Assembly: GCF_020382885.2 (NCBI RefSeq)
Contig: NC_058504.1
Span: 10,406,519-10,470,518, forward strand
DNA length: 64,000 bases
DNA from: Scatophagus argus
Lineage: Eukaryota > Chordata > Actinopteri > Scatophagidae
Direction of reading: 5' to 3'
Shown: one piece after another, positions 30,501 to 62,400 of the stretch
Layout of the letters: each line of letters begins with the position of its first letter
Numbering within the stretch: position 1 is the stretch's first letter
Position numbers and translations under genes: made by a program
The notes under the pieces: generated by a model
The model's database searches: none
Told to the model about the DNA's origin: nothing
What the model saw: only the letters and a program-made list of their open reading frames with translations

Positions 30501-33500
30501 CACCTCCAGGCTCTCGATGCAAACCACAGTCTGCAACAAGTTCTGGTGAAGATCTGCATTCTCCTCCTGCAGCGCCCTGAACACATAGGAATGATGGGAG
30601 TTGAGCTTTGAAAATATATTTATATTAGAGATTAGGCTCTTTGTTCCAGGCTGATAACAATACACATATGATAGTTATATAATCAGACTCCAAAAACAGC
30701 TTTGACTCTCAAATAATCACAACAAAGATGCTATACAAGTAAGCACTATTTTGTTATAGAGCCATGGAGGTCCTATTTCATACAGGCATCAGCTACAAAT
30801 TGTATAAGTATATTTATAGTAATAGTCTGGAAAGACTTCATAAGTGACATGTGCATTATATATTACCTATGGGAGGGTTTTTTGCGCTTATGTAATTTTG
30901 TCATGCCACTCTTTAGCTTCTCTGTCATATATACTTATTACTGACACAGAGATTATTATATAAATGAGTTCCATAACTGCACCCCTTCATGTTAAAACAG
31001 GAACGGAGGCAGAGAGGATGCTTATTAGTGTGATCAATAACCAGTGACCCATCACAAGACGGATGGAGCCAGACCCAAAACATTAGACAAAATGTGAAGT
31101 AAACTGACAGCAAGTTTATTACACACTTACCGGAGATGGTCGGCATCACACAATGTGTCCTACAAAAACAGGATAAAAAAAATCTAATTAATGCTTGCAA
31201 TATACACAAGACATTAGGTACATCAGGATATACAGTAATACTAGCATAGCTTAGATTGGAGGATGTTTACATCTTCACTGCTCACCCAATATAAATGTCA
31301 CATTGCCATTGTTTTCATTTGAATTCCAGTGCGCTCGAGAAGAGCCAAAAGAAATGAGAAACACGTCACTCTTCGAAGTCAACATGTGCTGCAGATATTC
31401 ACTGTTCACATGTGAACTGGCACTTTTGAACAAAGCCATTTAAGGATTAGCTGATCCGTGTCTGTAAATCTACAACAACATTAGCAGCTCAGGAGTGGTT
31501 CCAGGCTTGGCGCTATATTAAGCATATAATTATATAATAAGAATGGCATCACTTCCATCCTCCCATACAATTATTTTTAATACACTTTAGCCTGGCGTTG
31601 CTTGTACTGTGTAAAAGGCAGAATACACCCAGGACAGGTCATCTGTCTAGCACTTACTGAGCACATGACAGACTGACTAGACTGGTGAGTTCTGACAGAC
31701 CTGCACCCAGAATGGCTTATGATCCCATCTGACATGTTCCTCCTCACATTTGTACGTGTGTGATTTTGCATATAAAAAAAAAGAAGTATGTACTGAACCT
31801 TTACTTGATAAGATACAGTCAGTGAGACCAAATCCTACACAATAGCAACACAGAAAAAGACGATGTTATGTAATATTAGTACATGCCGAGCAGATTCTTA
31901 CATAACAGCAATGTGATGCTTGCTTTTATCCAACCTACTAACTCACACATTTTGTGTGGTACTGGCTGCTACTGCGAGCCAGTATGTGAGATTTGTCCTG
32001 GTGCATGTGTGATGTGTATTTTTACTCTGTCATCATACATAGGTGATTCCCGGAACATACAGTAGCTCCAGGCTGACAGTTGAAAACAAACAACTGGACC
32101 AGTTAAACTGATAAATAAAGGTGGTTTCAAAGAGAGTTTCCCCTAAAAGCACAGGACTATCATCTGCTGCATTGCTGAAGAATGACTCAGCTTGCAATGC
32201 GTAATTTTGGCACATCCCACACAGCCTGTGTCTCAGCTACACTGCCTCTGCAAGAGAGGAGCAACACTCCATTTGTTATGCACATCCTGTTATTTGTACA
32301 GAGCTGTCTTCCCCTCAGTTCAGTACGTGCAAATATATATCCATAATACATTATAGCAGCATAACATGCTACACATTGTGATGCAGCACGGTTTGAAATA
32401 GTTTGTTATCCTGTATATAACACTCTCTTGCCATCCCTGAATTGATACTCACAGATTTTTTTGATAAAGGTTTTAAAATTATCACTCATTCTATGAATAA
32501 ATATAAATAACTTATATTAGCTATATTACATCAGGATAACTCATGACTTACTTGTCACTTATTGTGACTAATTTCCAATGTGATTATTTCAAATCATTTC
32601 AGCTCTTAAGGGAAATGAATGTCAATAGACAAGCTTATAACATCATGACAACCACAAGTGCAAATGTGTATTACAGCATTTTAACCATTTAACCAAAACA
32701 TGCTTTCATTGGTGTTTCATTTCTAAATTGAAATAAGGTGTGACTGTACAAGTGACATTTCACTTTCAGATTCGTGATCTGAGGCCTGAAATCACCCTTC
32801 ACTCCTATCTTTACGGTCTCATATTATTGTGCTCTTACAAAAAACACAAAAAAGTACATTTACCCTGCGTGGTTTAGAGTTTCCCACATGTTGTGAATGG
32901 TGCCGACCACTCTGCTCTGAGCTGTGACTGGTAGCTGTGGAGGCTGTGTCCCTGGCCCTGGATGAATCTGATTTTGTGGATGAAGATTCAGATCCAAGGC
33001 CTGGCCCTGTTGTAGAACGTGTCTGTTGAGGCTGCTGCTGAGGGAATTGCTGGGTATGTTGAGTGTATGAGGCTGCAGGCTGCTGCTTGCGTTGGTGGCG
33101 TTGTTTAGGCCGGCTGGGTTCAGGACTGGTACTGGTGCCGTCTGTGAGGTGAGGGCCACATCTACCATATCTGTCCCCCGATTCGGAGCCCCCAGTGGGC
33201 GACAGCCTCCTGTCTTTACGGTTGCTTCCATGTTGTGTATTGTGGCTGGGAGAGTGAGGGTAGTGATGAGGTGGGGGACTACCGCGGTGGTTCTTAGCTG
33301 CATATGAGATAAGTTTGTCCGGGTTGGAGCAGTCCGAGTGTTTTCGAGAGCTGCTGTGAGCCGTTTTCTCCTGCCTGCTGTGCTGCTCCCTCTCCTCCCC
33401 TGAACTCTCTCTGTGCTTTTTGGGTGGGAGCTGAGGCTTGACTGGGCCAGGTTTTTGGGTTGGAGCAGGCTGCTTCCCAGTTGCTTTTCTGTTGTTCACA

Positions 33501-34829
33501 CCCAAGATGGTGAGAGCAGATGGACTCATAACCTGTTTTGTAATCTCATCTAGAAAGGCTGAGAACTGCAACTTCCCCTTCACAAAATTTTCCCTGGCTT
33601 GTTCAATCTCGACTTGAGTTACCCCTTTTCCCTTCTGTCTACTGGAATCTTGACCATTAGAAACTCTTGGGGACAGCACCTCCATAGACTTAGCCTTGCG
33701 AATGTCACTATGAGGCTCTTTGTTTTTAAGGATGCCTTTGCTGGGTAGCTGGCTTGAGGACACTGCTCTCTTGGGGCCCCTGGAGACCCCTAACAGAATG
33801 TCTTCCTCACTGAAAGCCAGGCTCCGGTTCAAACTAGCTGTCTTGTACAGAGGTCCATAGTTCATGTGAGGTTCCCTGGATCGTTCAGCTCCAAGTTCAC
33901 TTTCACTACCCTGCAGAAGACCTTCATCACTTCTGCTGTGACCTCGGTTAAGAGAAGAAAATCCACGCTTTCCCTTCTTTTGTGAGCTTCCTTGTGACTC
34001 ACTACAAACACTGCCATTTTTTCCATGTCTGATCGTGGCAAAGACAACGGGCTCACTGCTGTCATCTTCCCTGAAACCTCTGCGGACATTTGCGATGTTG
34101 GAGCAGGACAGGGAATGCTGTGGATGCTCAGCATGACAAAGAGAGAAGGGACCGTTTGCACTTGTCTCCGTGTACCAGGAGGAAAAAGAGGAGGATGAGG
34201 AGGACGAGGAGGAAGAGAGGGAGGAGGAAGAGGCCCTGGAGAGAGTTACAGGTGTTTCGTTCTTGTACAGTATCTCATCTTCTTCGCTGTTGTGAAATTG
34301 TTGTGCCTGATGACGATGGTGGGCATCGTGATGATGGCTGCCATGGAGATAATGACTATGGTGATGGGGACGGTGGTGCCCATGGCTTTCATCTGTATTT
34401 CTGTCTGTCTCATCAAACATCGTGTACCTACCAGGCAAAGACACAGGAATACAAGCAACTTTAATTATGTCTCTCTGCCTACCAATCTAATATAACTACA
34501 TTGTAGAAATAGAGCATATTTATAACTTAAATGTCAGAATATTTCATTTCAAAATGCAGCTGTAGCTTTTGCTCAATAGAGGCAAATTTTGGGATACATC
34601 AGACTTTTACTTGAATACTTCTTCCATTAGATGTGAAAACAAATCTGGCCGGCTGGTATGAAACGTCCTACCTGTGTGACTGGGGGTCTTGGTGATGGTG
34701 TTGACGGTGGTGGTGGTGGTGCTTCCTCGGCTTGATCTCGTCTGGGCCGCAGGGGCTGTGAACAGGCTTAAAAAAATTCTCCATCACCTGTCTCCTCCCT
34801 CTTGATGGAGATGGATTGTGGATGCTGTC
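27516..34829 (-). CDS. Unidentified Ser/His-rich coiled-coil protein (7 exons, 879 residues visible, 5' start not found)
   Basis: Exons with consistent phase: 34672-34829, 32864-34427, 31131-31159, 30448-30576, 29655-29721, 29252-29359, 27516-28100 (stop TGA). Numbering from the first visible residue: His-rich stretches near 40-50 and 69-93; polyserine at 119-136; SKGILKNK near 282; a hydrophobic block ENFVKGKLQFSAFLDEITKQ at 332-351 followed by VMSPSALTILG; PxxP-rich KPGPVKPQLPPKK near 378; Gln/Ser-rich linker; then a coiled coil built from five small exons (LEVELQRTRDELKHVKEKYK, LNRVSQLSLELEDAHRTMAA). The last exon starts LIKELLEKHFDSAEAIQKFL and ends with ILDEFLQQLQSHK. The coiled-coil layout recalls TJAP1 and BEGAIN distantly; the rest does not. 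The first exon with the initiator lies upstream of 34829 and was not found; a Met at about residue 17 (MENFFKPV) could be an internal start. Likely a cytoplasmic scaffold; function not claimed. Confidence 0.8.
29451..29587 (+). mobile_element. LINE 3' end (Rex1-like), short remnant
   Basis: The plus strand reads LPRCTTERHRKSFLPVAIKL then LNSAL and a stop. This is the typical C-terminal tail of fish non-LTR reverse transcriptases, which ends with R-x-R-K-SFLP-A. An A/T-rich region and a tctgat tandem tail (29567-29587) follow, as expected of a 5'-truncated LINE. It lies in an intron of the coiled-coil gene. Confidence 0.6.
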
Positions 34830-37005
34830 CTGTACGGGTTGACAACACAAAGGGCACTGATGGTGATCCGTGTTGGTAATCTGATTTTTTTTTTCCCAGA
34901 CAATCTTTTTCTCTATATGGCTATGATATCATCTCTTCAGACCAGAGCTACTGCTGTTTCTCACCACAAAAATAGGTACAGCATGTGGTGACTTTTTCTG
35001 AAAAATATATAATATTTTGAACGAGCCAATAAGGAGTCCTCAAAAAGTTTGCTCACAATAGTCTCTACAGAAAATAAATGTCTTGGTGTTTCAGTAAAGT
35101 ATCCAGTTGTTGGCTTGTTTCAGTATGCATAAGTTTGTCTCTCTCGGTGTCTGGCTGCAGAATAATGGAATCACGGCTCGTGAGCAGGAACGTAAGTTGG
35201 CTTGATTTTGCACCATGTCTGATGTAACAGCTGGGCATGCATTGAACCAGCTGAAAGAGCAAGACCTTTGTCCTCATACAGGAGACAATCGAATCAGGCC
35301 CTGTGGGACAGGATCTATAACGGAGTACATTTAACCCACTAATATGACAAGCAGAACTAGGGTTCATCCATACATTTGTGTTGCTTCATGCTTCATGTCT
35401 ACATCATCTATTCCTGTGTTACATTTTTTGCTAGCTTTGTTTTTACAGTGTTTATTAATATATAAAAAGCAAGTATGAGCATCAAACAAAAATATTGAAC
35501 TGCCCACAGCGGCCCCATTGATTTTGGAAGGTTTCCTGCTGCCATCTCGCTGAGGCCTACATAGTTATATTTACAAGGAAGATATATAGGCTTAACCCTG
35601 GACAATCTAAATTTGTCATCTGTCAGCACAGATTATAGCCAGTCATATGATTTTGCACCGATACGATTGATTTATCAGGAATTTGGTATGCTGATTTAAT
35701 CAAAACATTCTTCCCTGTCAAGTTAGGCCTATTTAATAAATAGATTTGCACACTTTCTCAAGTGATTTTCCAGGTTTGCGGTGGCGTGCTGTAGGCTATG
35801 TCGCAACTCCACCTCAGATACAACTTCAATGCTATTTCCACTAAACATTCTAGTTATCACAGTTGATGCCTGACAACTTCTAACAATCCCTTAGTTGCGC
35901 AATGCAAATTGCCAACAGTTTCACACAAAGGTCTTGATGAGCCAGATGAAAGGCCTTGATGTGACATAGTTATCACATGAAAGAAGATGCCTCTATTTCT
36001 AATGTATGTGTGGCACAGTATAGCTCCTGTCTAACAACCATGAAAAAGATCAATTCATTGAAGTTGGGAGGGGTAGAAACTCATCCAGAGGACAACAACC
36101 CACACTCAGCTTTTGATCAATGGCCTAGAGTTATCATGAAAATAGTTACATAAGGGAGGTTGCCCAGACTTGTCCAGGGTACTGGAATCAATGGTGAAAA
36201 CCAATACAGCAGATGAAAACAAGGGAAGGATAGGGAGAGTTCCAGGATTAGAACTGACGTGGCGTGAGATACAGCACGTCTCCTTTAGTGCACCCTCTGC
36301 TGGTGAACAAAATTAACTCCCATTTTGGCTTTCTGTACTGGTAATTTTCCATTCTGTCACAGCAAGTTTCCTACACTGGATGTTTCTGGATATTTCTAGT
36401 TTTATGGCGTACACTGTTTAGACACGTCTAATACTGAAGCTTTGTTAATGAACTGGACATTATACGTTAGACTCATACAATGAACGCTTGTAAAAGAGGT
36501 CTGTGACTACAGAATAATACAAGATACCACATGATACATTTGACACATTGGACGCACCACTGCCTTTACTAAGCAGTCCACCAAAAAGATAAACTCGTTA
36601 TTGAACAAAGGCCGTGCGAGTTACAAGAGATGAGTTGGCTTTTTTTCTATTGTTCGTCAATCACAAAGAGCATATTGCAGTAAAGGGAAAGTAGATCCGG
36701 CAATTCAACCATTCCAGTTTGATCCGGTCTGTCGGACCGTGTAACACACAAATACAGGTCAATCCGCGCAGTCCTTTCTGTGACGTCAGCTGTTTTGACT
36801 ATTGGGTTTCATTGCGATGTGGGTTAAAAATGTGTTTTTTTATTATAATTTTCCTCGCTGTTTTGTGTTCCACATATTTCCAAAGCGAGAATATGATTGA
36901 CATCATCAATACAATCACATTTTATAAGCATTTTTTAAACGTGAATCTGGGGCTATTTTTAGCGGATGAATAACTTCTCTTGCTGTGGCCGAATCACCCA
37001 AACAG
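34830..37005. other. Head-to-head interval between the coiled-coil gene and malat1
   Basis: It must contain the missing first exon(s) and promoter of the minus-strand coiled-coil gene and the upstream region of malat1. A perfect cAMP-response palindrome TGACGTCA lies at 36781-36788 and an inverted CCAAT (attggg) at 36801. No other coding exon could be supported. Confidence 0.5.
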
Positions 37006-37013
37006 TATAAATA
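36781..37013 (+). promoter_or_regulatory. Candidate malat1 promoter (CRE, CCAAT, TATA)
   Basis: TGACGTCA at 36781-36788, an inverted CCAAT at 36801, and TATAAATA at 37006-37013 lie in order and would place transcription start near 37036-37045. A second possible core (TGACGTA 37614-37620, ATTGGC 37642-37647, TTTAAATA 37651-37658) lies 640 bp downstream and could be an alternative promoter. Motif evidence only. Confidence 0.45.
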
Positions 37014-40000
37014 CTGCGTAAGACGCCATTTCAACTCACTTTGCTGATACGAATGCGATTCGTGTTCTTTACGTCGTGGCTCGTCGCAGGTTAAATCGAT
37101 CTTGTTTTTCTTCTTTTTAAAGCTTAGACAGTTAGTCGTAAGTAACGAAGATCTGAAGATTTACACAACCTAGTCTGATAATTGTGATTTTTTTTCTTGA
37201 ATCTAGGGTGTTTTGTTCAGAATCAATAGCATTAATCCCTGTATCGAACTTAGACAGCTTCGTTGTTAGTATAAGCAATTTTACTTGGTAGTTACTTTTA
37301 TCCAGCAAGACTTACTTATCGAACTAATACAGCGGGCGTTTGTCAGCTAAACTTAGCCTGTACACGAAACCAAAGCGTCTTTTTTATCCGCTGGTTAGCC
37401 AGACGAGGCAAAACAAGCGAAGTACAGGGCCTTTATTGTCTCACTCTTATTCTTCAACTTTCTTTTTGTTCACTTAATATCTAAAATAGATTACAAGTAT
37501 CAAGTACTTTACTGTGTGTATATATGTATATATATATAGAGAGAGAGGAAGGATTGAGTCTCGATTGATGTTTTTTCACGTCCCTAACGACAGTTGTCTC
37601 AATATGGGTGCCGTGACGTAGAGGCCAGCAAATGTTGTGCTATTGGCTAGTTTAAATAACGCGTGACTCTACGAGATAGAGATGGAAAGGGCGTGGTTAA
37701 ATTTTAAACAGGCGCAACGGTAGAAATGTCCGGAACGACAATATTAAATTTTTTTAGCTTTTCTAAATTGATATTGACGTTAATAAGGCATTACCGTGAG
37801 GCCCGATTCCACGTTAAAGCGGTGCCTCGAAGTAAAAAAAGAAAACAGAATATTACGGCAGTCATTTCGGAGAAGAACTCGATAATCAACGTGCGAAGGT
37901 TTAGCCCGAAAAGCAGTTTAACTATGAACAGCAAGAGCACTAATATAGGAAACGCTGCATCATGTCAGTTAATAATTTTGAGGACAGAAGTAGCAGACCG
38001 AGACTAGTATGAGGACTTTTAATAACAGTTTTGAAAATCGATCATTAAACTCTACTGAATAGAATCGCTGTGAACCAATTTGTTTGGAAAACCAAAAGAA
38101 GAAGAATTTTTTTTCAAAGAAATTAAATGCGCTCAGTCTGTGCCACAATTTGAGCAAACATCTTTGAAATGCCTCTAAGCGTTTTTTTTTTAATTTCTCT
38201 TGTGGTTCAGTCGTTGCTCCTTTCTTGTTTTCAAGTTTCATATGGTAGTATTTCCTTTTACCTAAAGCTTCTTGGAAGAAAACAAAGTTTATTCTACCAG
38301 TTGTTGCAGGCTCAGTTGATACTGAATGGATTTTTTTTTTAAATCAACATCTTTTGTATTGCTTAGAAGACAGAAGATTTTTTTTTTTCGGGGGCGGGGG
38401 GGATGGACTGAGTTATCGAGGGGAAAAATGGACTTAGTTATGCAGGAAGAATGGACTTAGTTATTAGAGGAAGATCGCAGGACCAGCGCGGCGCGAGGCC
38501 ATGGGAGACGGGGAGGACCAGAGTGGAGCCAGGCAGGGACAGGACCAGAGGGCATGGGAGGACCAGAGTGGAGCCAGGCAGGACAGGACCAGAGGGCGTG
38601 GCGGGACAAGCAGAGGGGGCCCAAGAGAGCAGGAAGCAGCAGCAGCAGCTGTCGGCGGGTGTACACCAGAGGGAGCCAGAGGCACAGGACAGAGTAGCAG
38701 CACAGAGGTGGCCATCACTGAACCAGTTGCAGCAGTTCCAGAGCAAGCCAGCCAGCCAGTCTTGAGGGTGGGAAAGGGAGTGCAAGTGTCATCTAGCTTC
38801 GCAAGTTTAAAATCAGGCGTTGGTTTGTATATTGGGTATAGGTATCTCTGTAACTTCTCAGAATATAATTTTGCAACCCACTTTCTAGAAACATCTGTTG
38901 TAGAACACAATTTCTCGCACAGCTCTCTCTTCCTCTTTACAGGCAAGCCGTGTAAAGCGTTTTGTACCGTGGTCACCCCTCCTGTTGTGCGCTGACTATG
39001 AGTGTGGTGGTGTCTGCTGTGGTGAATGCCTTGGTAGTGTTCTGGCGAGAGGAACATCTTATCGGACTTCTCTACCCCCTGCGCTCAGAAGTAGTTCCCC
39101 AGCCGGAGGGAGAGGCAGTCCTTTATTGTTCATAGGTCTTCCCCGAAAGAAGTTATCAGCATTGGAGTGTGAGAGTGGATGGTCTCCTGTGCGACCGATT
39201 GATGTGTGTATACAGCAACCCTTCAGTGATTCAGCTGGGCTTCAGTGGTACAGATCAGCAACTCCTACCTCTTATCCCCAGCAGTGAGTTAATGCATGAA
39301 ATGTACGTGTGGGTGTAACTATCCAGTACATCAACAACGTTGCCTGTCTAGTGCACAGTAATTTTTGTTATCAAAAGAAATTTGTATAGAAGTTATAGTT
39401 GATCCTGGCTAGTAAAGACTTGGGGAGGGCGGGGGGTATTTAAAACATGTTTCGAGTTCTTCTTTTCACAGGCCCGGCCCCCTAAAGCTGATCATCGAAA
39501 GAATCCCCCTGTGCTAGCCACTCGGTACAAGTTGAGCTCATCTTATTTACTGTAGTGCTATGGATTGGGATCATGTGCATCCACTGCGATTTAAAGAGAT
39601 TTAGGAAGGTATTTGTATCCAGTACACTATTTGGAACGTGTTGTAAATGGGGTTTCATGTATATCTTTTGGGCAATGGGAGGGGGGGGGGGTTGTGGGGT
39701 TTTAATCAGTCTTTTCCTAGACTCCACAGCTCCACGTTGCGACGCAAAATGGCTTGAGTAGGCAACATCCAGGTGCTCCCACCAGGATTGAAGTGGACAC
39801 TTTGCCTCACAAGAGAGCAACTTCTAAACTAGTCTCCTGGTTGTGCAGGAAGCTCTGTTTTCCCAGGGAGAGTGGTAACAAGTCTCTTTACTAGAAGTCA
39901 TTGTAATTCTATACAGGCTTCAAGTTGCTTTGTGGGGATGGGCGTGGGCTGTCTATGTGTGACTTTTGCAGATTAAGTTGTATGACCCATCCTTGAAAAA

Positions 40001-42372
40001 TCTACATTCGAGCCCACATCATCAGTTCGTAAGGATGGAATCCCTCCCGTTCAGGCTTGTGGTATTTTAAATGCTTCTTCTTGAAAATAGGTTAAGTCTT
40101 TTATGAATTGTACTCAGTCATACAGTTGTCCTTCCTAAGGCAGTATTGTAAAGCCATAATTGTCTTGTAGTTTTTTACTGCTTCATTTGAGGGGTATTGT
40201 GGGGAGAGAGGCTTTTTCCTTTGCATTTTTCAGTGTGCTGTGTCCTGTGCGCTTTCCAATATCCGAGACCATCAGGATCTCTGCTAACTCATTGTATGTA
40301 CAAGTTTCCTTGCGCATCGAGCATCACGTAAGGTCACTAAATGTGTCACATTTCTCTTTAACATTCATTGTCTGGCCAAATGCCTCCATTGCAATTCCTT
40401 TGCAATTAGTTACTATGCTTTGTATTGACAATACAATGAGTGAACTATCTGTAAAGGATTTTCTTATTGCATAATAAATGCATAGCTTGTTGTGATTGAA
40501 TACAGTTTTGGTATGCATTTGTTCTTTTTTGGGGGCTGTGTGGGGGAGCTTTTCTTGTGCTTTTTCAGGTATGACTAAAGCTTGGAGCTTTGTTAGAGCA
40601 CGGATGTGACCTGCGGTCGAATGACATCCTTTTCAAAGTGGAAATTGAAGGCAGATAAGTTGAATCCATCAAATATTGATGTTGGAAAGCAGAAAAGTCC
40701 CAACCCTAGAGTGGTCACTTATCTTGAATGGGCTCATTTGCCCTCATTGTTCTTGAACTGAAAGCAACTTGCTATACATGACTGTAGAAATAGCACTGCT
40801 GTGCTTTCTTAAGTCTCTTGTGATAACGGGAAGATTTAATGGACCTTCATTGATTCTGACGTTATCTGCAGTAAAGCATTTGGGTATGGATAACAATAGT
40901 CAGTTCTGTGATACTGTGGTGGGGGGGCATAGGGGGTGTTTGTCTGCCTCTTTGATCTTTCAGAAATCCAAAGGAAGAAAGCAAGTCTACCTAGGACAAC
41001 AGGAATCAACCATCACGCAGTTTGAACATGTGGAGTCAGGTTGTTTTTGATTGTGTATAGATTGGAACCATTAGCCCTCAGCTGCTAGCCATTGCGCAAA
41101 TGTGCAAGTGGCAGGTTGGTCACAAAAAATGTCTTTATCATCGCGCAACTGTGTGGTGATCTCAAAATTGAAGTAGCTGAGGCAAGCTGTGCATGGTACG
41201 GCTATAATTTGACCTGAAATGCAACGCAAATGTGTTGCTGTAGTTTATATCGTGCATTAGTTTTGTTCGGGTGTATCCCTATACTTCTCTTCACAGAAAT
41301 CAGAGTGCGAGACTGGTTCAAGCACAAGTGAAGTCCTCTAACCTGGAGCATGTAGTAAGATGTTGGCTTAACTTGTCAAAATAAATTTCTGCAATGTTGT
41401 AGTTGACATCTTGGAACTGGCTTTATGTTAACCTCATCAGTAACAACAATGCTTTACCTGCATATTCTTCTTTGGCCATGGGGCCCTACTGCTTTGCATC
41501 TTAAACCATAAGATGAGTAGAACTCGAATCTTTGAGTATTGTGTGGTGGGTGTTTTGTGTAGATCACTCTGTTTCAGATCATTTTCGTCTGTCCACTCCG
41601 ATCTCGCCTGCCTCTGAATGCAAAGTCATCTGTGGAAGCTATCAGCGAATATGAGTGTGGCCCCTGAATGAAGTACCAACTCCCTGTGCGCTTGAGCTTA
41701 AATCTGAACCCCCTGACGTCCTTCGCAGAAGCCCTGCTCTCTGTGTTGTGTGTGTGCCTTTTTTCTTTTTCCCTTGGTTTCTCAGGTCAAATTATCAAAC
41801 AAAAAAAATTGTCTTAATTTGTCATCTGGGATGGCCTTTGATGGAGCACTGAGAATCCAGTCACATTAAGATCAAGAGCTGCAAGCTTGTCTCTAATACT
41901 GCATCACCTCAGTCTCATGGGTGCAAGTTAAGTAATTTTGGTTCCCTTGATTTTTCTTTAACATACATGGCTTTAATGTGTAACTCAACATACTGCATGT
42001 ACATCAGCTCTGCATAACATTTTATTTGTAATACACATGTTCATGTAGTCGTTGTCAAACATTGCAGTATTTGGTCGGGTTTCTTTGGGTAGGTGGGTGT
42101 GGGGGGGGCAACACTCTTCTTTCTTTCTTCCATATTTCTTGTTCAGGTTATCTTGATACTGAGCCAGGTGACTTAAGCCTCTGCAGGGGAGTCATGGGAT
42201 GACTTGGTACAGCCAGCCTCTAGAATACAATCTTTAATACTTGGAAGAATTGAGCATCGCGGAGGAATAATAGCTGTGGCAAATGCTGCTTCACCAGTCG
42301 TGGTAAACTGTAACCTTATTGACCATGTTGACATAATCTGTCATAATGGATGAGTATTGGTTTGAGGTTTGT

Positions 42373-42392
42373 GGGGGGTGGGGGGGTGGGGG
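42373..42392 (+). other. G-quadruplex-prone tract in malat1
   Basis: Three adjacent G-runs (42373-42378, 42380-42386, 42388-42392) separated by single T residues give at least four possible GGG blocks on the transcribed-RNA strand. It lies about 300 nt upstream of the triple helix. Confidence 0.5.
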
Positions 42393-42698
42393 TTTAAATT
42401 GTCTGTCTCTTTTTCCTGTTACAGCTGTAAACTTGACAAGAAAGCCTTCGCTGTCCGTTTTGACCCGCAAGTCCTGCCAAATTGCAAAAGGGGAAATGGC
42501 TTTGGGTGTCACCAGGGATTCTGGTATTGTGGATTTAATAACGCAAAAGGATATTGTGGAAATGAGTTAAATGCCAATACAGTGTCGTGGGGAATGCCGG
42601 GATCGGGGAAACCGTTGTCTGTCTTCTAGTTTCAGCTTCGTGACCAAGAGAAATCCCCTTGTGGTGACAGGATAATATAGCAGCCAGGTGTTGAAGGG

Positions 42699-42784
42699 TT
42701 TTCTTTTCCTGGAGGAACAAACTTCTTGTTTTGTTCCTCCAGGTTTTGCTTTTGCCCATAATACAGCAACAACAAAAAGCAAAA
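42699..42784 (+). ncRNA. MALAT1 3' triple helix: ENE plus A-rich tract
   Basis: Parts in order: U-rich motif 1 TTTTCTTTT (42699-42707); a perfect 14-bp hairpin stem CCTGGAGGAACAAA (42708-42721) with TTTGTTCCTCCAGG (42730-42743) and an 8-nt loop; U-rich motif 2 TTTTGCTTTT (42744-42753); a 21-nt linker; A-rich tract AAAAGCAAAA (42775-42784). Motif 2 is the exact Watson-Crick complement of the A-rich tract (10 pairs). Motif 1 lines up in parallel as four U.A-U triples, one C+.G-C triple, a skipped C-G doublet, then four U.A-U triples. This is the blunt-ended architecture known for human MALAT1, which protects the non-polyadenylated end from exonucleases. Confidence 0.95.
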
Positions 42785-42843
42785 GACTCCGGTGGTGGCA
42801 CTCCTGACTTTGTCGGGACAGGGTTCAATTCCCTGCGGTGTCT
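42785..42843 (+). ncRNA. mascRNA, tRNA-like small RNA released from the MALAT1 3' end
   Basis: A 59-nt tRNA-like fold begins directly after the A-rich tract. Acceptor strand GACTCCG pairs with CGGTGTC (42836-42842) except for a T.T opposition at the fourth pair; anticodon-like stem TCCTGA/TCGGGA with loop CTTTG; T arm CAGGG-TTCAATT-CCCTG with a canonical TTCAA loop; discriminator T. The blocks TGGCACTCCTG and GGGTTCAA and CCCTGCGG are shared with human mascRNA. RNase P cleaves at its 5' side and RNase Z at its 3' side, and CCA is added afterwards; the CCA is not encoded. Confidence 0.95.
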
Positions 42844-45591: not shown

Positions 45592-48500
45592 ATGTGGTCC
45601 TTTTTTGCCAGGGATCCTGTCAAAGACTTTGCTTATGAAATTCTACCAGACACCCAAGAAAAGTCTGGAATATGGACTCTACATCGGGGGAAGCGAAAGG
45701 TAATAGAGTCTACCAGTCCCCCGCTAAGAGTTATCCCGTTTCGTTATGGAGGCCTGTCACTTAGCTGATTAGCTAGCGGCTAAGTGACATCGACTACTTC
45801 GATTCAGCTTTCAGACGCGACGTCTTGTGTTATCTTGCCGTGGTTTCACGTCGATATCTTTCTCGTCTTTCACGCCGATTCAGTGTCAGTGCTGATTATT
45901 TTTCTATATGGAGTAAGTGTTCGCTAACGAAGTGAGTTCAGGCTTTGTTTACTCCGAGAGACAGACACGTATTTCTCGCCACGTCACCCCGTTTTAGCCG
46001 AGTTAACCGCTGTTATTATAATAGTTTTCGAGCTAATGCTTCATCACATGAATAAAGAGTCCGTGCCCCACCACTATTAGCACCTCACTTAGGAAACTGT
46101 CCTCGGTATTATCGTCGAGCAGCTCTGGAATGACAATGCCATTACAAACACTGCAGGGCCGGATAATGACAGTCAAACACCCGCTTCCTGTTTCATCACG
46201 TTTATTGTAATTTATTTAAATGTGACACGGTCATATCTCAATTCTATGGTTGTTATGTTTGTAGTCTTGTTTGAATTAATTACAAAGCACAAACGTTTAG
46301 CGCTTAGTGCAGTGCTTTAAATATTATGTGTCAGTGTTGTGGGTGATTCATTTCAGCCCAACTTGTCTCCTCAGACCAATGGAGAGCCAGTGTCGGTGTT
46401 TGTGTACGAGGTAGCACAAGGAACAGAGCAGCAAACCCAGCTAGCCAAGGCTGCCTTCAAGCGTATGAAGACCCTGCGTCATCCTAACATCCTGGCTTAT
46501 GTGGATGGACTGGAGGTATGTGCAAGTGTGTGTGTGTGTGGGAGTGTGATTTTTGCATCCATCTTTACTCACCCAGTTCTTCATGTTTACAATGTTGAGA
46601 GGAAAATGTCACTCAGCGTGCTTGTGGCACATGTTGCAAAAACTGTCATGTTTTTTTTTTTGTCATTTCACTAACATATAATTAGTATCTCATCTTCACC
46701 ATCTGCTTTTCTTTGCATGTTTGCATTCAGATAGAGGTGAGTGTGACTATGCCACTGTAGGCCTGTAATGTTTGTACAAAAGTGAGTAGTTCACTACAGA
46801 ATGTAAGTAGATTCTCACACCTGCTAAATGTTAGCGCGTGTACAAGGTGTGCTGTGTTGCACTTAGTTGTGGGTGTGTGCAATAATTCAGTATTTACATT
46901 TGTTGCTTTTTGATAGAAATCTTTGGCGATGAACTGTTTATTATAAAACATTGTTTTGTTTTGCTGTGTATTTGTTTTGCATATTGCTTTTAACTTTCAT
47001 TCAGCCACTGACTTGATTTGTAGCAGAGCTGATAATAAATAAAACATAAATATTAGTTAGAAACACACACATTAAATAATAGTTGTTGTTGTTGTTTTTT
47101 TTTCTTTGTTTTGTGGTTCTTTCACAGACAGAGAAAAGCCTGTACCTGGTTACTGAGCAGGTTACACCCCTGGCAGTCCACCTGAAGGCCAAGGCAGAGA
47201 AAGGTGGAGCTGGGGACCTGGAGGTCTCCTGGGGACTGCACCAGATTGTGGTAAGTGGATAGGAGGTGCTGATACTTTCATGGGAGCCATAGTTCAGTAG
47301 TTCTGCAAGCAGTTGCTTCACTTCTGCTGTTTGCCTTCCATCACAGAAAGCCCTCAGTTTCCTAGTGAACGACTGCCACCTCCTCCATAACAACTTGGGT
47401 GTATGGTCTGTTTTTGTGGATCGAGCTGGGGAGTGGAAGCTCGGGGCCCTTGACCATGTGGCCCCCGAGCAGGGTGATCCAAGTGGTGTGTCACTCCCTG
47501 CCCCCAAAGCTGTCTACCCAGACATGGAGAAATATGACCCGCCAGAGCTGCCCAATAGCAATGCAGAGAAATGGTAAGAGAGGGGTGTATTTTAAAAGAA
47601 AACAGAACAGAGCAAATCAGAATAATAATAATGTAATACCTGAGTGTCGATATGATGTTGAGCCTTGCCCTGGTTCATGTCTGTTGCAGGGCGGGGGAGG
47701 TGTGGCGGCTAGGCTGCCTGATTTGGGAGGTGTTCAATGGGCCTCTACCTCGCACGTCCTCCCTTCGTTCACTGGGAAAGGTACGACACCTGTGACCATG
47801 CTAATAAAAATATTCTTAGGTTTATAGTTAAAATTGGCCTTTTATTTTATTTCTGACGGTGTGCTTACATTTGATTCATAAAAGATGCTGAGCATAAAAA
47901 AACTTGCTTAAGCAGGTTCTTTAAATCCCATTTGTGACTCACTAAATATCTCAGATCAGCTAAAATTTACAGCAGCTGCCTTGTGATTTGTGATCTACTC
48001 CTGTATAATTCCTGGACAAATGAGGGTTTAGTCAGGAACAGCCACGGACCAATGGAGAAAATCGAGAAAACGAGATGAATGAATGCAAAGGCAGAACTAG
48101 ATAAGTGTTGTGGTGATGTCAGAAAAGCTTATAAACTTTGTTTTTGAGTAAAAATGAGGATTATTAGAAATAATAAATGTTTAGATCATTCTGTTGTTTC
48201 TTTTGCATTAAAGGGCAGACATTTTGTCATTGTGAAGAAGAAGTGTAGTCATATTGAACTTGAAGAGTTAGCAGAAACTGTGAATGAGACAAATATGCTC
48301 CTACCAAGTTGCCTTCAAGCAAGGAATTTAACCAAACCAACAGTTTGTTCATGGTTTCAGTGATGGCTCAAAGGGATCTTTGTTGGCAACATGGAGAAGT
48401 GATGTTCAGATTTGTCTTCTGCCTCTTGTGTTTCCTTTTTGCCCACAGATCCCCAAGGCCCTCGTCCCTCATTACTGTGAGCTGGTGGGGGCTAATCCCC

Positions 48501-51500
48501 GAGCTCGGCCCAACCCAGCTCGCTTTCTCCAGAACTGTAGAACCCCCGGAGGGTTCTTCAGCAACAGCTTTGTGGAGAGCAACCTTTTCCTGGAAGAGAT
48601 ACAGGTGCAAAGACACACATAATCATAACAATGGTGTTTGTAATTGTGCCCAAGTGACTGCCTGTGTCGTGTAGGCTCAGAGCGGAGACTCAAAGCCACA
48701 CCACAATAATTTCTAAGTTTTAGCAGTGTCCAATTGTTCAGGAAAATCTTCCCTCGAAGTCCAGTAGAATCATCAGCAGGAGACAGGATTCTGGGCAGCA
48801 AAGACTTTAATTCCGGCAAAAAAGGGAAAAACCGTTCACAAAGCACACTAGGTACACATGAAGGGTCTCTCACAGAATGACTGGTGGCTTCACGTTATAT
48901 ACCTTAGGGTTTGGACCTTTCCACGCCTATTGTCCATCCCTTTTGCCAACTTTGTTTTTATTTACACCAATAGATTTCTCTTTTTGTCCTGGATTGGGTG
49001 GTGACTTTTGACACCATTAGGTAGACCTGCCCTAGGTCTTCTGGGGACTTTCCACTGGCCTTATCTTGCACCTGTTTATTTATTATTTTATTATTTTTAT
49101 GTGCTTCTGTGCACAGTTTACACCACTAGTTCTCCTCTCTGAGCTGCCTTCCAATTTCAGCCTAAGTTTCAGCTGGCACTTGACACTATTATCTCCAGGC
49201 CTCTTTCTGTGCTATTTTTTAAAATAATTGTTTTTTATGCAGGATTACAATAAATGCTCTTTTCCAGGTTTACAGCAGTTACAATGAGATTACACAATTA
49301 CAGTTTTACCTTCTATAGCTTACAGGCCCTTAATCAGTTGTATCCTTTTAATACGGCTGTATCTTGCTTTTCTTTCAGTCTTAATGGAAACATAACATGA
49401 CTACATCATGCTATTATATTGCAGTGCATACTATAACTTCAGCTCATCACAACTTACATAGAAATTACACCACACCTGCCGTATCAAGATAGAACCAGGG
49501 CAAGTGCTTATGGATCTGTCCTGAGGGAAACATTATTTAATTTGAAAAAACGGTTACCATCACATGCCACTGAAAACTGTTTGTTAGTGTTCATAACAGT
49601 TTCTGATCATATAATGGATGACAGCAGTGGAACTTGAACTTTGTCTCCAGATCAAGGAGGCGGCGGAGAAGCAGCAGTTCTTCCAGGATCTCAGTGACAA
49701 TCTGGACTCCTTCCCTGAAGACTTCTGTAAACACAAGGTCCTGCCTCAGCTGCTCACCGCCTTTGAGTTTGGCAACGCAGGCGCCGTAGTCCTCACGCCG
49801 CTTTTCAAGGTGAATCCTACAGCATCTCATTTTCAGAGTAAAACAAAGTATCTGTCACTAGAACTTGCATAAATATATTCCCTAGTCTACTAAGTTCCCA
49901 AAACAAAATATTTAGAATAATGTAAACACACAACTCAACAAAAAATATATCAAAGAGCAAGCTGTTTTTAGTTATTTTAATACAACATATTGTATGTTAA
50001 CCCAACCCATTTCCTTTATCCCATGTCTTTTTATCTGTCCCTCTATTTGTCTGCCAGGTGGGGAAGTTCCTGTCAGCAGAAGAGTACCAACAGAAGATCA
50101 TCCCTGTTATCGTGAAGATGTTTTCCTCCACAGACAGAGCCATGAGGATACGGCTGCTGCAGCAGGTCTGTAACGGCCGTTACATCCGGCCACCGACAAA
50201 GAAGCGGTTGATTAGTGAAGTGGTTTTTAGTTAATTTAACTTGTACCATTGTGCAAGAGCACGTTGCTGCTCTTGACCAAAGGAAGGATATATTTTTGTC
50301 TGTCATTTTTGAGCCTGTGGTAAACCCATTATTTCTTGTCTGTCTGTCTCCAGATGGAGCAGTTCATTCAGTATCTGAATGAGGCAGCAGTCAATTCCCA
50401 GATTTTCCCTCACGTTGTCCACGGCTTCACAGACACCAACCCTGCCATCAGAGAACAGACTGTTAAGGTAATTTGCATGCTTAAATTCAACAACCAACCA
50501 GGAGTTGTTATTGCATCTTGTTATTACTTGTGCAGTAGATGTTGTCAGCCTGCCATAACGGTAACTCCTCTGTTTCTCTCTCCAGTCTATGTTACTGCTG
50601 GCTCCCAAGCTGAATGAGACCAACCTGAACCAAGAACTGATGCGTCACTTTGCCCGTCTGCAGGCCAGAGACGAACAAGGCCCAATCCGATGCAACACCA
50701 CTGTCTGTCTGGGAAAGATCGCCTCCTACCTCAATGCTGGGGTAAAGTACACCCGCACTGTGTAAAACACTTGATTCATGTAATGCAAAACACCACTTCA
50801 GGAAGGAATCTGTTCAGATGGATGAATTTGGTTGACTCTCTCCTCACAGACTCGACAACGTGTTTTGATTTCTGCGTTCTCACGAGCCACTAAAGACCCT
50901 TTCCCAGCTTCACGCTCTGCTGGTGTACTTGGCTTCGCCGCCACACACAACTATTACAGCGTAGGGGAGATCGCCGCCCGCATTCTGCCCACCCTCTGTG
51001 CCCTTGCTGTTGACCCTGATAAGAGTGTCAGGGACCAGGTATACGCGCATGACTAACTGACACTTATGACTACGTGTTGTTTCTTATGGCTTGGCTATGA
51101 TTGCCTGTATTATCATTGCAGTGGAGATGAGAAAACAGTTTGCCCAAAGTGATGTAGTTATTCAATATTTAATGTAATTATATCAAGACTACGTCAACCT
51201 CTCTAAACCATTCCAGTCAGAGCTGGAATATGCTGATGTATTGTTGCTCACTATGTTTTTCTTATGTCTTCTCTTTCTTTTTCTGTCAGACATTCAAAGC
51301 CATCAAGAGTTTCCTTTCCAAGCTGGAGACGGTATCAGAAGACCCCGCCAAGCTGGCTGATATAGGTGTGTAACACACCACACTGAGCTGTTTTTAGTTT
51401 TATATCTGAAATTCAGTGTTGAACTAAAAGCTTGAGATTTTCTTTTCTGCCTGTCTTGCAGAGAAGGACGTGGCGTCGTGTGCCCAACCTGCTGGTGCCT

Positions 51501-54136
51501 CCTCCAGCTGGGCCGGCTGGGCCGTGACTGGCATGTCCTCGCTGACTTCTAAGCTGATCCGCAACGCTCCAGGGACCGAGGGGGGTGCAGCTGAGGGCAG
51601 CGGGTCCAACAACAACACCAGCCCTACCAGCGCCACCAGTGAAACACCTACACCTGGTAGGGTTGTCACATTTGATTTGCTTGGGACATTGTTGGACTGG
51701 TGGGTGGGGGGCAGTTTTGAAAAGAAGTCGATGCAGCACAACTAGAGTCTTTGTTTTTATTTATTCTCCATTATCTTCTCCCTTGTCTAAACCTGCCACA
51801 TACATTACCCACAATGCAACCATAAAAGGTTTTGTACCACTTTTTTCCTTATATGTGCCACCTCATCCCACCCGAGTCATGCAAAGACACTTTGGTGTGT
51901 ATAACAGATTCCTCCTTAAGAAGTCCCAAACATGCACTCTGTAACCACACCTCTTGTGTTCCTTTCTATCACAGGTTCTGAAGATAAAACTCCTCAACCC
52001 TCTCTGACTCACCAAGCTGCCTCTACTCGTGCCAACCAATCGCAGGCTCTTGACGTAACAGACAATGATGACGAGCCAGTGGGAGACCGCTGGGATGAGG
52101 AGGAAGACTGGGGAAGTTTGGAGGTAAGATTGTACTATTTTTTTTTTTAACAGAATTATCTGGCATTATGTTGCAGTAGTAATTTCAGATCATGAAAATT
52201 GTTGGCTTTTTCTTCCACAGGAGCCAGAGAAAACTCACACTGAGCCAGATGACTGGAACACAGACTGGTCAGGAATGGCATCATCCAAAAAGAAGGCCAG
52301 TGACAGAGGAGTATGAGATCTTTCATTTGAATCAATTACACAACACCACCTGTAGTGCTAATACCATTAATTTTAATGCAACAAACTCCACTGATCGTAT
52401 AGCCACTCCTACTGTGAGTAATAATTATCATACCATTACTTCTGCTAGTATACTGTTGATACTGGGCTGAAACAGATGATAAAGAAACATTCCCCATATA
52501 ATCAGAGCCATGTATAGCACTGAAAACAAATGAAAAGAAAAGGAATTTTGGTTGCTTTGAACAAAAAGAAAAATAATTCTCTTACACTCACTTTATGGTT
52601 TTGGTGCTCGGGCTTTGAGCTGATAAGATTAATGAGTTGATCCAGACGTGATTAATGAACAGTGAACAGGATATCAGAGCTTGTGATCTGACCTATTTGT
52701 CTTTACAATTTTACAGAGTTCAGTAACTTTGTGATCAGTGTTCTCTATGTGGATGAAATTGTGCCTCTTTTTTTTTTTTTCTTTTTAAATAGTTTTTCAA
52801 TTGGTCTCCATTTTTATCATCTTTCCCATATCTAGGTGGGCCGGTCGTCCTCCACGGCGGTGAAAAAGCAGAGCTCGGACTGGAGCAGCTCAGGCTGGGA
52901 CGCCGATGACAGCTGGTCCAACGAGAAGGAAGGGCAGGGTCAGAGCTCTGCAGGCGAGGAGGGCTGGGGGAATGACTGGGGGGAAGAGGACACAGACGCA
53001 GCTTTGGCAAATGCAACACTCCCTCTGCCCGAAGGGGTGCGGTTAGCCAGCGACTACAACTGGGAGACCAACAGTGCGGCCAAGGGAGCCGGTCAGAACG
53101 ATCTGTTTGCCAGCATCTCGCAGAGAAACACAACCAGCACTGCTGCCACCACGGTGAGGACAGAGGGAGGCAAAAACAAAAAATGGACAGATTAAATTAA
53201 TGCTGCTTAGATGTCAATTCTGCATCATCATCGTTTAAAGTGTCCCAGGTGGTTGGTGTTCAAAAAAAAATTGTGACCATATTTGTGTGGCCAACACATT
53301 ATATCTCATTTGTTTAAACTCTACAACAACCTGAAAAAATGTTTTATGTAAATGTAAAATGTTTAAGTTTTTACAGGGATTTGAATGATTTTTCAGAGCT
53401 AAGGTGTAGCTGCTTCAGGCCTTTATTGCTAAGCCAAGCCAATCACCTGCTGGCTCCAGCTTTACATGAAGTGTACACACATGAAAAGAGAGTATCCACC
53501 TTGTTTCCCGACTCTCAGCACGAAAGTGAATAAGCTTATTTCCTGAAACTGTTCAACGAGATTAAAAAATACTGCCTTCTCTTGGTGCGAAGTTGATCTG
53601 TAGGTCAAGAAAACATGAACATGAAATGAGAGAAATTATCAGGATAATCTGACAGCACAGGCAGTTCAGAGAAGTGATGTGTATGTTGTATTTTCTGCAT
53701 GTCAGGCTGGTGATGGATGGGGCGCGGAGGCAACAGGAGACTGGGGAGCTGAGGAGAGCTGGGAGTCCGTGGATGGGAACCAGGGTAAGTCCCCTTTATC
53801 AGAAATATGAACATTCACAGTTTAGGATGAGCTGCAAAACAGACGTCACATTTACACCAAACTTCTGTGTGTTTTCCTGTGTGACATCACTGGAGCATTT
53901 TCACTTCTCCCCCAAATCTTCACTTGAATTGCTTCTGTATTCACACTAATGCCATTAGCTGTATCAGTTATATACCTGTTTACTGAGCTGCCCGTCTTTG
54001 CTGTAAACCAGGTCTCAGTAAGGCCGAGCTGTCCAAGAAGAAACGGGAGGAGAGGAGGAAAGAGCTGGAGGCGAAACGGGCGGAGCGCAAAGCTGCTAAA
54101 GGTCCTCTCAAACTGGGCGCACGCAAGTTGGACTGA
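45592..54136 (+). CDS. scyl1: SCYL1, N-terminal-kinase-like COPI-associated pseudokinase (867 aa, 18 exons)
   Basis: SCYL1 is a catalytically inactive kinase-fold protein with HEAT repeats that binds COPI coats in Golgi-to-ER traffic. Exons: 45592-45699, 46375-46515, 47128-47250, 47347-47573, 47690-47780, 48449-48604, 49651-49809, 50058-50165, 50354-50467, 50586-50741, 50850-51038, 51290-51365, 51462-51656, 51975-52123, 52221-52310, 52836-53153, 53706-53784, 54012-54136 (2604 nt, all phases fit). Start [16 protein letters not shown] is family-specific. The pseudokinase domain covers roughly residues 10-310. The HRD and DFG motifs are lost: [14 protein letters not shown] and KLGALDHV occupy their places. 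HEAT repeats follow (about 330-560), then a low-complexity acidic/tryptophan region ([28 protein letters not shown]). A Lys/Arg-rich helix ends in RKLD, the known COPI-binding terminus. About 60 residues longer than human, mainly in the W-rich region. Confidence 0.97.
48650..49560. mobile_element. Possible LTR-like insertion in scyl1 intron 6
   Basis: Scyl1 introns are mostly short, but intron 6 is about 1 kb and base composition shifts at about 48650. The segment includes gcaaagactttaattccggc and a T-rich block, reminiscent of a solo LTR. I could not see a clean target-site duplication or TG...CA ends. Tentative. Confidence 0.25.
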
Positions 54137-59441: not shown

Positions 59442-62400
59442 ATGTCTGTGGCGTTTGACGGGAGTCCGCTGAAAGCGATGCAGAGCTCACACACTCACAC
59501 ACCGCAGGCTGCCCTGAGGTGAGTGGAGCGGAAGCGGCTGGACTGACAGAACAGAAACAGAGAAAAGTACATTTAGACTCTGAAGTCAGTTTAGTACGTT
59601 TTTAACCCCCAAAGTGAACCGTACAAAGATTCATCAGTCAATGTCACTACACTGGTCTACAGAGGCAGCTCGTGTTTGAAGTTACTGGATTAACAATAGA
59701 CGTCAGGGCTACATTGAGTAGTTTTCAGTTAATCGATTATTCATGTGCTCTGTTAAGAACATATACATATGACGAGTTTTTTTGTTTAGGCTGAAATCCT
59801 TCACATTCGATAAAAAGATTTCAACTAAAAGACTGACATTATATCGATTGAAGAAAAGTTAATAATTGTATAAAATTTCCAGAAAATGTTTGGTATTTTA
59901 ATTTTATAAAATATTTAAGTAGTTTATATGTTAGTGCTGCAGTGCAATTTAATCATTTCCGTTATTACTTTAATTTTTAAACCTTAAATTATAAGTCAGT
60001 TAATCAATTATTTAATCAATGTAGAATTATAACTCTTTTGATGATAAGTTGTTTAAAACAGTAATTCTTCATATTACCTAATCACACCTTCTTATTTATG
60101 AGGATTTGATGTTAGTAATAAACTGCACAACTAAAACATCTGGAAGACGTCCACTTGGACTAAGCGGTTAATCATTGCAGTGAGAAAAAGTGTTCGCATT
60201 TATGGATAATGAAAATAATTGTTAGTGTCGGCCTTTTTCTTTAGTTTTTTTTTTTTTTTAATTAATTAGTCAGACATTCATAAGAAACCGTAACTACCAT
60301 AACATCCCAGAGCCCAGAGTGATGTCCTTGAATTGCTTGCTTTGTCCAAATTAAAACTCAGAAGACAAACATTTTCAGAAAGCTATAAAAGAGAAAAGCA
60401 AATAAATCTGACATTTGGTAAGCTGTATCAAGCGTGCGTGGCACATGATTCAAACGATTACTTGGTTACCACGTTGTTGAGGTTGATTGAGGAAAAAAGC
60501 AATCAATCAGCAACTATTTTGATAATTAATGTCTCTTTTTTTCATCTGTTTTCTTCTTCTGCCAAAATTCCTACTTTGCCCATCATGTCGTCACATCTGT
60601 CCTTCTCAGTGCCCACGATCTGTCACAGGAGATCAAGTCCTTCATCAGTGGCGTTGACACGGTTCAGGGTAGGAAGCTCAGCGTTCGGGAACACGCTCGC
60701 TGTGCTGTGCGCCTGCTGCGCTCGGTCCCGGCCTGTCGAGGGGCGGTGCTGGAGCATCTGAGGAGCGTGTACGATGAGCATGTCTCTGCCTTCTTACACA
60801 ACCTGGAAACAGAGGGTGATGCCAGCTCTGGGGTCAGTTCCAACCTGGAGGACATCATACAGGTGTGTTGACAAAAGAGCACACATAGGACTTCTTATGA
60901 AGGTAGCATGAAAGGCTAACATCACAGGCCATTTCCATTCAATTCTTGTGGATTAGTATCACTGTTTTGATGTTGATTGCTGCTTATAATCACCTTTCAA
61001 GCAAAAATGCCAAATAATATCTAATTCCAGCTTCTCAGTTGTGAGGATTTTGCTGCATTTCTTTTGCTCTTGTAATAACAATGCTGAATATTTTTGATGT
61101 TTTGGATGAAACGAGCAATTTCATCTTGAGCTTTAGAAAATTGTAGGGAGCATTTTCCACTAATTTCTGACATTTTATAGAACAAATGATTAGTCATCAG
61201 AATAATTTGAAATAAGTCTAAATAACTGATCAATAATGAAAGGATTTGTTTGTTGCAGCGCGAGTATTTTATGCTTTGAATTTTAAACATTCAGTATCAC
61301 TTCTGTGTAAGATGAAGAGAGACAGACACATGAGGTTGTCTGTAGTGTCTGAATCATCTTTATAGGCCCAAAGAGTATCAGATCCAGACCACACTCAGTT
61401 TTGCTAGACTAAACCTCTGTTTTCTTGCATTCAATGAAAATATGGTAGAGGTTGGAAAATTCCTCAGTAGATGTACCTAATTATTTCTGTGTGTCTGTAG
61501 GAGGTTCATGGTGTGCTGTCAGAGTTCATCCGTCTCAACCCCCGGGCCTGGGCCCCTCTGGTATCTTCCTGGGCTGTGGACTTGCTGGGCCAGCTGAGCA
61601 GTAAGCACGCTGGCCGCAGGGTGGCCCCTCACTCCTCCAGCCTCAATGAGCTGCTCCAGCTTTGGATGTCCTGTGCTGCAACCCGGTCCCTCATGGAGAC
61701 TTACTCCCAGTGTTTGGCTGCCATGCTGGCCTGGTGCCCTGATGCCTGTGTAGATGCGTTGTTGGACACTTCAGTACAGCACTCCCCGCATTTTGACTGG
61801 GTGGTGGCTCACATTGGCTCTGCCTTTCCGGGTACGATCATCAGCCGAGTCTTGGCATGCGGACTCAAGGACTTCTGCTCTCATGGTGCCAAGGACCAAG
61901 GGCTAATGGTGATGGGAGTGGATAAAGGCAGCAGGGTGCCTAAGATTGGCTCGGTGGTGGGGATCCTTGGACACCTTGCAGCTCACCACTCAGACAGCAT
62001 CAGGAAGGAGCTGCTCAGAATGTTTCAGGAAAGCCTGGGTCCATCAAGCCCTCTATCACCCACTTCATCCTCAACATCTTGGGAGAGTTCCCCTCAACTT
62101 CGTCGTGCCGCAGTACCGTTTCTGCTGCAGTTAGCTGCAATGTCCCCCTACCTCTTTGGTGCAGTGTCTGCAGAATTGGTAGAGCTGCTACGGCCTCCTG
62201 TGCTTCTCCAGCTGCAGGCCTTGTTGCAGGGCCTCCCAAGAGAGGAACTGGATAACATGCTGGGACTAGCTGTCCACCTTATCAGCCAGAGCCCATCAGG
62301 AGGTGCCCGGGTCCTCCGTTTTCTGGCAGACACGGCAACCCCTGCATCGGTCATCATCTCCGGCCCTACACCTGCCCCTCATGAAGGAGTCAGAGAAGGT

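Follow-up and report, generated by a model that had tools for sequence, protein, structure and literature searches.

The MALAT1 long non-coding RNA, its triple helix and its synteny with SCYL1 have been described in jawed fish, and in the account given there SCYL1 lies downstream of MALAT1 on the same strand in ray-finned fish (PMC10869381). PMC5871880 gives the sequence of the human triplex RNA, and the human MALAT1 triplex is reported to consist of nine U.A-U triples and one C+.G-C triple (PMC11411715). In zebrafish, malat1 is described as a mono-exonic, abundant RNA about 7.5 kb long, whose inactivation gave a null allele that is viable and fertile (PMC6633201). According to the comparison in PMC6888369, H190-H194, the triple helix and mascRNA are the only parts of the human model that zebrafish and coelacanth MALAT1 fit. 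A second triplex/menRNA gene, NEAT1, is present at the locus in tetrapods other than birds and squamates.

Here we describe a 64-kb stretch of Scatophagus argus DNA (the window; coordinates are positions within it). In the segment 42699-42842 we recognise, with near certainty, the 3' end of a ray-finned fish malat1 lncRNA gene, because its motifs are in the MALAT1 register, a mascRNA abuts them directly and probable SCYL1 follows downstream on the same strand. Further evidence comes from the stability of the apical hairpin and from its close likeness to the human triplex RNA as published. Gene order points to a ray-finned fish, and so does the 570.7-Mb genome, a size usual among teleosts and small among tetrapods. 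Both MALAT1 and its triple helix have been published for fish before, and the locus is a further example of a known gene.

A predicted triple-helix 3' end in Scatophagus argus

Direct reading of the sequence, together with folding, gave the following elements, all on the + strand.

42696..42698, +: short P1 basal stem, 5' strand GGG; the minimum-energy fold pairs it with the GCCC side
42699..42707, +: U-rich motif 1 (U1; Hoogsteen strand), the 9-mer TTTTCTTTT, read from the sequence
42708..42721, +: apical hairpin P2, 5' arm (sequence and fold)
42722..42729, +: apical loop (sequence)
42730..42743, +: apical hairpin P2, 3' arm (sequence and fold)
42744..42753, +: U-rich motif 2 (U2; Watson-Crick strand), the 10-mer TTTTGCTTTT, complement of the A tract
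42754..42773, +: linker holding the P1 3' strand, diverged from human
42755..42757, +: P1 3' strand CCC, preceded by one unpaired G (sequence and minimum-energy fold)
42774..42784, +: A-rich tract AAAAAGCAAAA; the predicted RNase P-made 3' end at 42784 is set by the mascRNA boundary
42785..42842, +: mascRNA (RF01684), 73.2 bits, E 1.9e-13, full model length

The original prediction had named U-rich 1, a 14-bp hairpin, U-rich 2 and an A tract, and all of them lie where it placed them. The two arms of P2 are fully complementary over 14 bp, and U2 and AAAAGCAAAA, the last ten bases of the A tract (42775-42784), are exact reverse complements. With U1 placed alongside the A tract in parallel orientation and the C-G doublet's C skipped, 9/9 Hoogsteen positions are allowed, in the order four U.A-U, C+.G-C, the skipped C-G doublet and four U.A-U. 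The C+.G-C triple and skipped doublet claimed to be as in human are thus borne out and, as read from the letters, the register at 42699-42784 fits a MALAT1 triple helix. The piece comprising U1, the hairpin and U2 is far more stable than its shuffles (fold z = -6.8), and the 156-nt segment 42690-42845 has z = -4.1; in neither case was any of 200 shuffles equally stable.

The mascRNA directly abuts the A tract, and its score is far above the gathering score of 42.5 of the Rfam mascRNA-menRNA model. The covariance search proposed with the original prediction therefore succeeded for mascRNA; the triple-helix models of Rfam had no hits in the window even with E allowed to reach 5. At that threshold the window has nine Rfam matches, and mascRNA is the sole one that reaches a gathering score. 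The other eight, to mir-466 (twice), mir-297, RUF3, sR53, SCARNA7, psbA-2 and tmRNA, fall below the score of their family and were set aside as chance or simple-repeat matches; the psbA-2 match overlaps the P2 hairpin and the tmRNA match overlaps the T arm of the mascRNA. ARAGORN found no tRNA in the window, nor in three further mascRNA loci of the genome (L036, L040 and L042).

Comparison with human MALAT1

Human and window sequences were compared without automatic alignment, in which the A tract ends at the wrong place. The two share the A tract end AAAAAGCAAAA, the U2 core UUUUGCUUUU, the U1 core UUUUCUUUU, the C-G doublet and the base of the apical stem. In human, U1 reads UUUUUCUUUU and GC is followed by five U in U2, whereas the window has four in both. 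With one U fewer in each strand, one U.A-U layer is missing, and the window has eight U.A-U triples and one C+.G-C (nine triples) compared to nine and one (ten triples) in human. Calling the triple helix base-perfect was for this reason an overstatement. The linker has diverged, and the run of A before the paired A tract is shorter in the window. As had been proposed, the triple-helix register nonetheless fits.

The apical stem has 14 bp in the window and 13 bp in human. Nine of the 13 shared pairs are unchanged; the other four, which are adjacent, have changed on both sides with pairing kept. A figure of 1 in 715 can be put on four such opposite changes, but we do not rely on it because the changed pairs are adjacent and may reflect few events. 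The proposal that structure rather than sequence is conserved holds for this hairpin, with its 4/13 compensated pairs, but not for the triplex core. U2, the A tract and most of U1 are identical in letters to human, and conservation of the core is therefore at the sequence level. Strong purifying selection had also been claimed; comparison of two sequences does not measure selection.

Occurrence of the motif in the genome

Neither the pair of U2 and its A tract nor the full motif appeared on either strand of 200 simulated 64-kb sequences (first-order Markov, derived from the window). A better guide to chance than this simulation is the count in the whole genome (570,666,677 bases, 570.7 Mb, in 48 contigs), where the exact pair occurs at five places. 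Flanks were compared at four of them (the window, L043, L045 and L046), and only the window has U1, the hairpin and mascRNA; the fifth place, on C18, is known from the match alone. The 251-bp malat1 3' end has a single match in the genome, in a search that is insensitive to diverged copies, having missed nine short mascRNA copies. Between them, the exact-pair and 251-base searches found no second triplex-bearing copy.

Among viral contigs, the U2-A pattern is present in 34 stretches, none of which has both U1 upstream and a T-loop-like string downstream. TTTTCTTTT lies no more than 90 bases upstream in 4/34 (L004, L008, L009 and L023), L004 and L023 being identical in the matched stretch, and one other viral stretch (L027) has a T-loop-like string within 75 bases downstream.

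The predicted malat1 gene and its neighbours

The gene is predicted to span about 37.0-42.8 kb, and the following features of the window surround or compose it.

37006..37013, +: TATAAATA box, identified by sequence; predicted malat1 start 25-35 bases downstream
37035..42784, +: predicted mature malat1 lncRNA, about 5.75 kb; 3' end from the mascRNA boundary, 5' end inferred
45592..53195, +: probable SCYL1 coding region, start codon at 45592, from frames and a Cex1 match
46321-46674, 47293-47577 and 48332-48622, +: exon-holding open frames 1-3 of probable SCYL1; frame ends are not exon ends
50324-50617, 51428-51745 and 52836-53195, +: exon-holding open frames 4-6 of probable SCYL1; frame ends are not exon ends
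57.1-57.9 kb: LRAT-domain exons (Pfam)
61501-63498: INTS5 (Pfam, E 6.1e-153)

In bird MALAT1, the distance from TATA to start is given as 25-35 bases (PMC10869381). By analogy, we predict that transcription of the fish gene begins near 37035. A promoter-like cluster lies ahead of it at 36781-37013, with TGACGTCA at 36781, ATTGG at 36801 and TATAAATA at 37006. The predicted RNA is shorter than zebrafish malat1 (about 5.75 kb compared to about 7.5 kb), and the longest + strand stop-to-stop frame listed within 37035..42784 has 175 aa. GC skew is above zero in 5/5 kilobase bins between 38 and 43 kb; as it is still positive onward to 49 kb, it says little about malat1. Inside the predicted RNA, a G/A-rich 45-base tandem repeat (2.0 copies) occupies 38511-38601; it is possibly a splicing-factor-binding stretch. 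Upstream of malat1, the - strand holds a 555-aa open frame at 32819-34486 with no Pfam match at E 0.001.

The frames at 45.6-53.2 kb probably belong to SCYL1, judging by the human protein, and Cex1 is the yeast relative of SCYL1. One of two of these frames tried against PDB gave a match, that at 50324-50617 to yeast Cex1 (PDB 3vwa, E 4.2e-4), and this frame has a single match in the genome. Pfam did not name SCYL1: 0/2 frames matched in one run and 1/5 in another, the one being a HEAT repeat match, below the Pfam cut-off, in the same frame 50324-50617. We conclude that SCYL1 is probably the next gene downstream of malat1 on the same strand. MALAT1 of ray-finned fish such as zebrafish likewise has a triple helix and mascRNA, with SCYL1 next downstream on the same strand. 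FRMD8 is described as missing from the locus in ray-finned fish. FERM_M has 47 matches in the genome and none in the window, which agrees with such a loss but is no proof of it; the FERM of FRMD8 may score too low by exon. The match nearest to the window is on the - strand of C12 at 10.255-10.257 Mb, about 150 kb before it.

Assignment of the locus

A mascRNA match alone is not proof of malat1, as this genome has nine other mascRNA copies, and earlier work cited by PMC10869381 reports dozens of MALAT1-like modules in anole lizards and some in fish. The 3' end described here could thus be a relocated MALAT1-like module within an unrelated transcript rather than an ortholog of malat1. However, probable SCYL1 follows directly downstream in the same orientation, which is the arrangement described for ray-finned fish, and, apart from one copy that also hits a simple TA repeat, none of the nine copies shares anything with malat1 upstream of the A tract region. 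The window mascRNA also scores highest (73.2 compared to 52.5-59.3 bits), and at the sensitivity of our searches the genome has no second SCYL1-linked triple helix. We therefore consider relocation very improbable.

NEAT1 (MEN beta) has the same 3' end architecture, and its menRNA shares RF01684 with mascRNA, so the family match by itself would suit NEAT1 as well as MALAT1. NEAT1 is reported as tetrapod-specific, however, and for jawed fish a single MALAT1-like gene is reported (PMC10869381). The 64-kb window has a single RF01684 match, and no second triplex/menRNA gene was found in the window or, among the candidates scored, elsewhere on C12. We give identity with NEAT1 almost no weight. Hardly any weight goes, too, to a decayed malat1 locus that is no longer expressed, to which the missing U.A-U layer and a U.U mismatch at the fourth pair of the mascRNA acceptor stem might point. 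The remaining elements are all intact and the mascRNA is far above the cut-off. Moreover, the layer is gone from both U strands, which would be unexpected for random decay.

For a malat1 gene, maturation can be proposed by analogy with human MALAT1. RNA polymerase II would transcribe through the locus, and the mascRNA would fold like a tRNA, be cleaved from the upstream RNA by RNase P at 42784/42785 and be released at its own 3' end by RNase Z. The freed A-rich 3' end may then pair with U-rich 2 while U-rich 1 enters its major groove, the expected product being a blunt helix of nine triples (four U.A-U, C+.G-C, the C-G doublet and four U.A-U). Such a helix would take the role of a poly(A) tail by blocking 3'-5' exonucleases, and the RNA would accumulate in the nucleus. 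We infer transcription, cleavage, triplex folding, stability and nuclear retention from the human system. The locus adds one fish sequence to the known deep conservation of MALAT1. It also provides a natural variant of an RNA triple helix that is under medical study: both U strands lack the same layer, and the hairpin sequence has changed by compensating pairs.

Further mascRNA copies

Searching the genome with RF01684 gave at least 10 matches above the cut-off, the window and nine others; the count is a lower bound, as 68 of 64,509 first-look candidates were scored. The nine others, seven on C6 and two on C7, are as follows.

C6 18.57-20.63 Mb and C7 21.62-21.66 Mb: mascRNA-like copies L036-L042, L056 and L057 (RF01684)

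A 340-base piece around one copy recovers the same nine at 98-100% identity. Where surroundings were compared (7/9 copies), they form common duplicated stretches of at least 1.05 kb with about 98-99% identity. All nine derive from one founder by recent duplication, so features that they share count once. In all nine, likeness to malat1 is confined to one 71-base stretch of 79-80% identity that runs from two bases before the A tract to the exact end of the mascRNA, and CCA is encoded in the DNA directly after that end. The copies have an A-rich leader without adjoining U-rich partners: 8/9 have no 9-mer with at least seven T within 880 bases upstream, and the ninth (L057) has 9-mers of this kind 349-521 bases upstream, more distant than in malat1.

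It is an unlikely though conceivable reading that the nine copies, which retain a tRNA-like fold and A-rich leader while lacking triple-helix partners, form a small family of free-standing mascRNA genes besides malat1. In that reading the product would be the small RNA rather than a stabilised lncRNA, and the encoded CCA would look as though the founder had come from a finished, CCA-tailed mascRNA. Multiple mascRNA copies have been published for a fish before: Table 1 of PMC5584509 lists 42 mascRNA-menRNA matches for the killifish Nothobranchius furzeri.

Long pairing around one C6 copy was considered and dropped (fold z 0.08, with 99/200 shuffles as stable). One copy has an additional match to a simple TA repeat (L060). 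Two aligned C6 copies are without a non-standard pair, unlike the malat1 mascRNA with its U.U at pair 4, and one pair of mascRNA copies adjoins a protein-kinase frame (L047).
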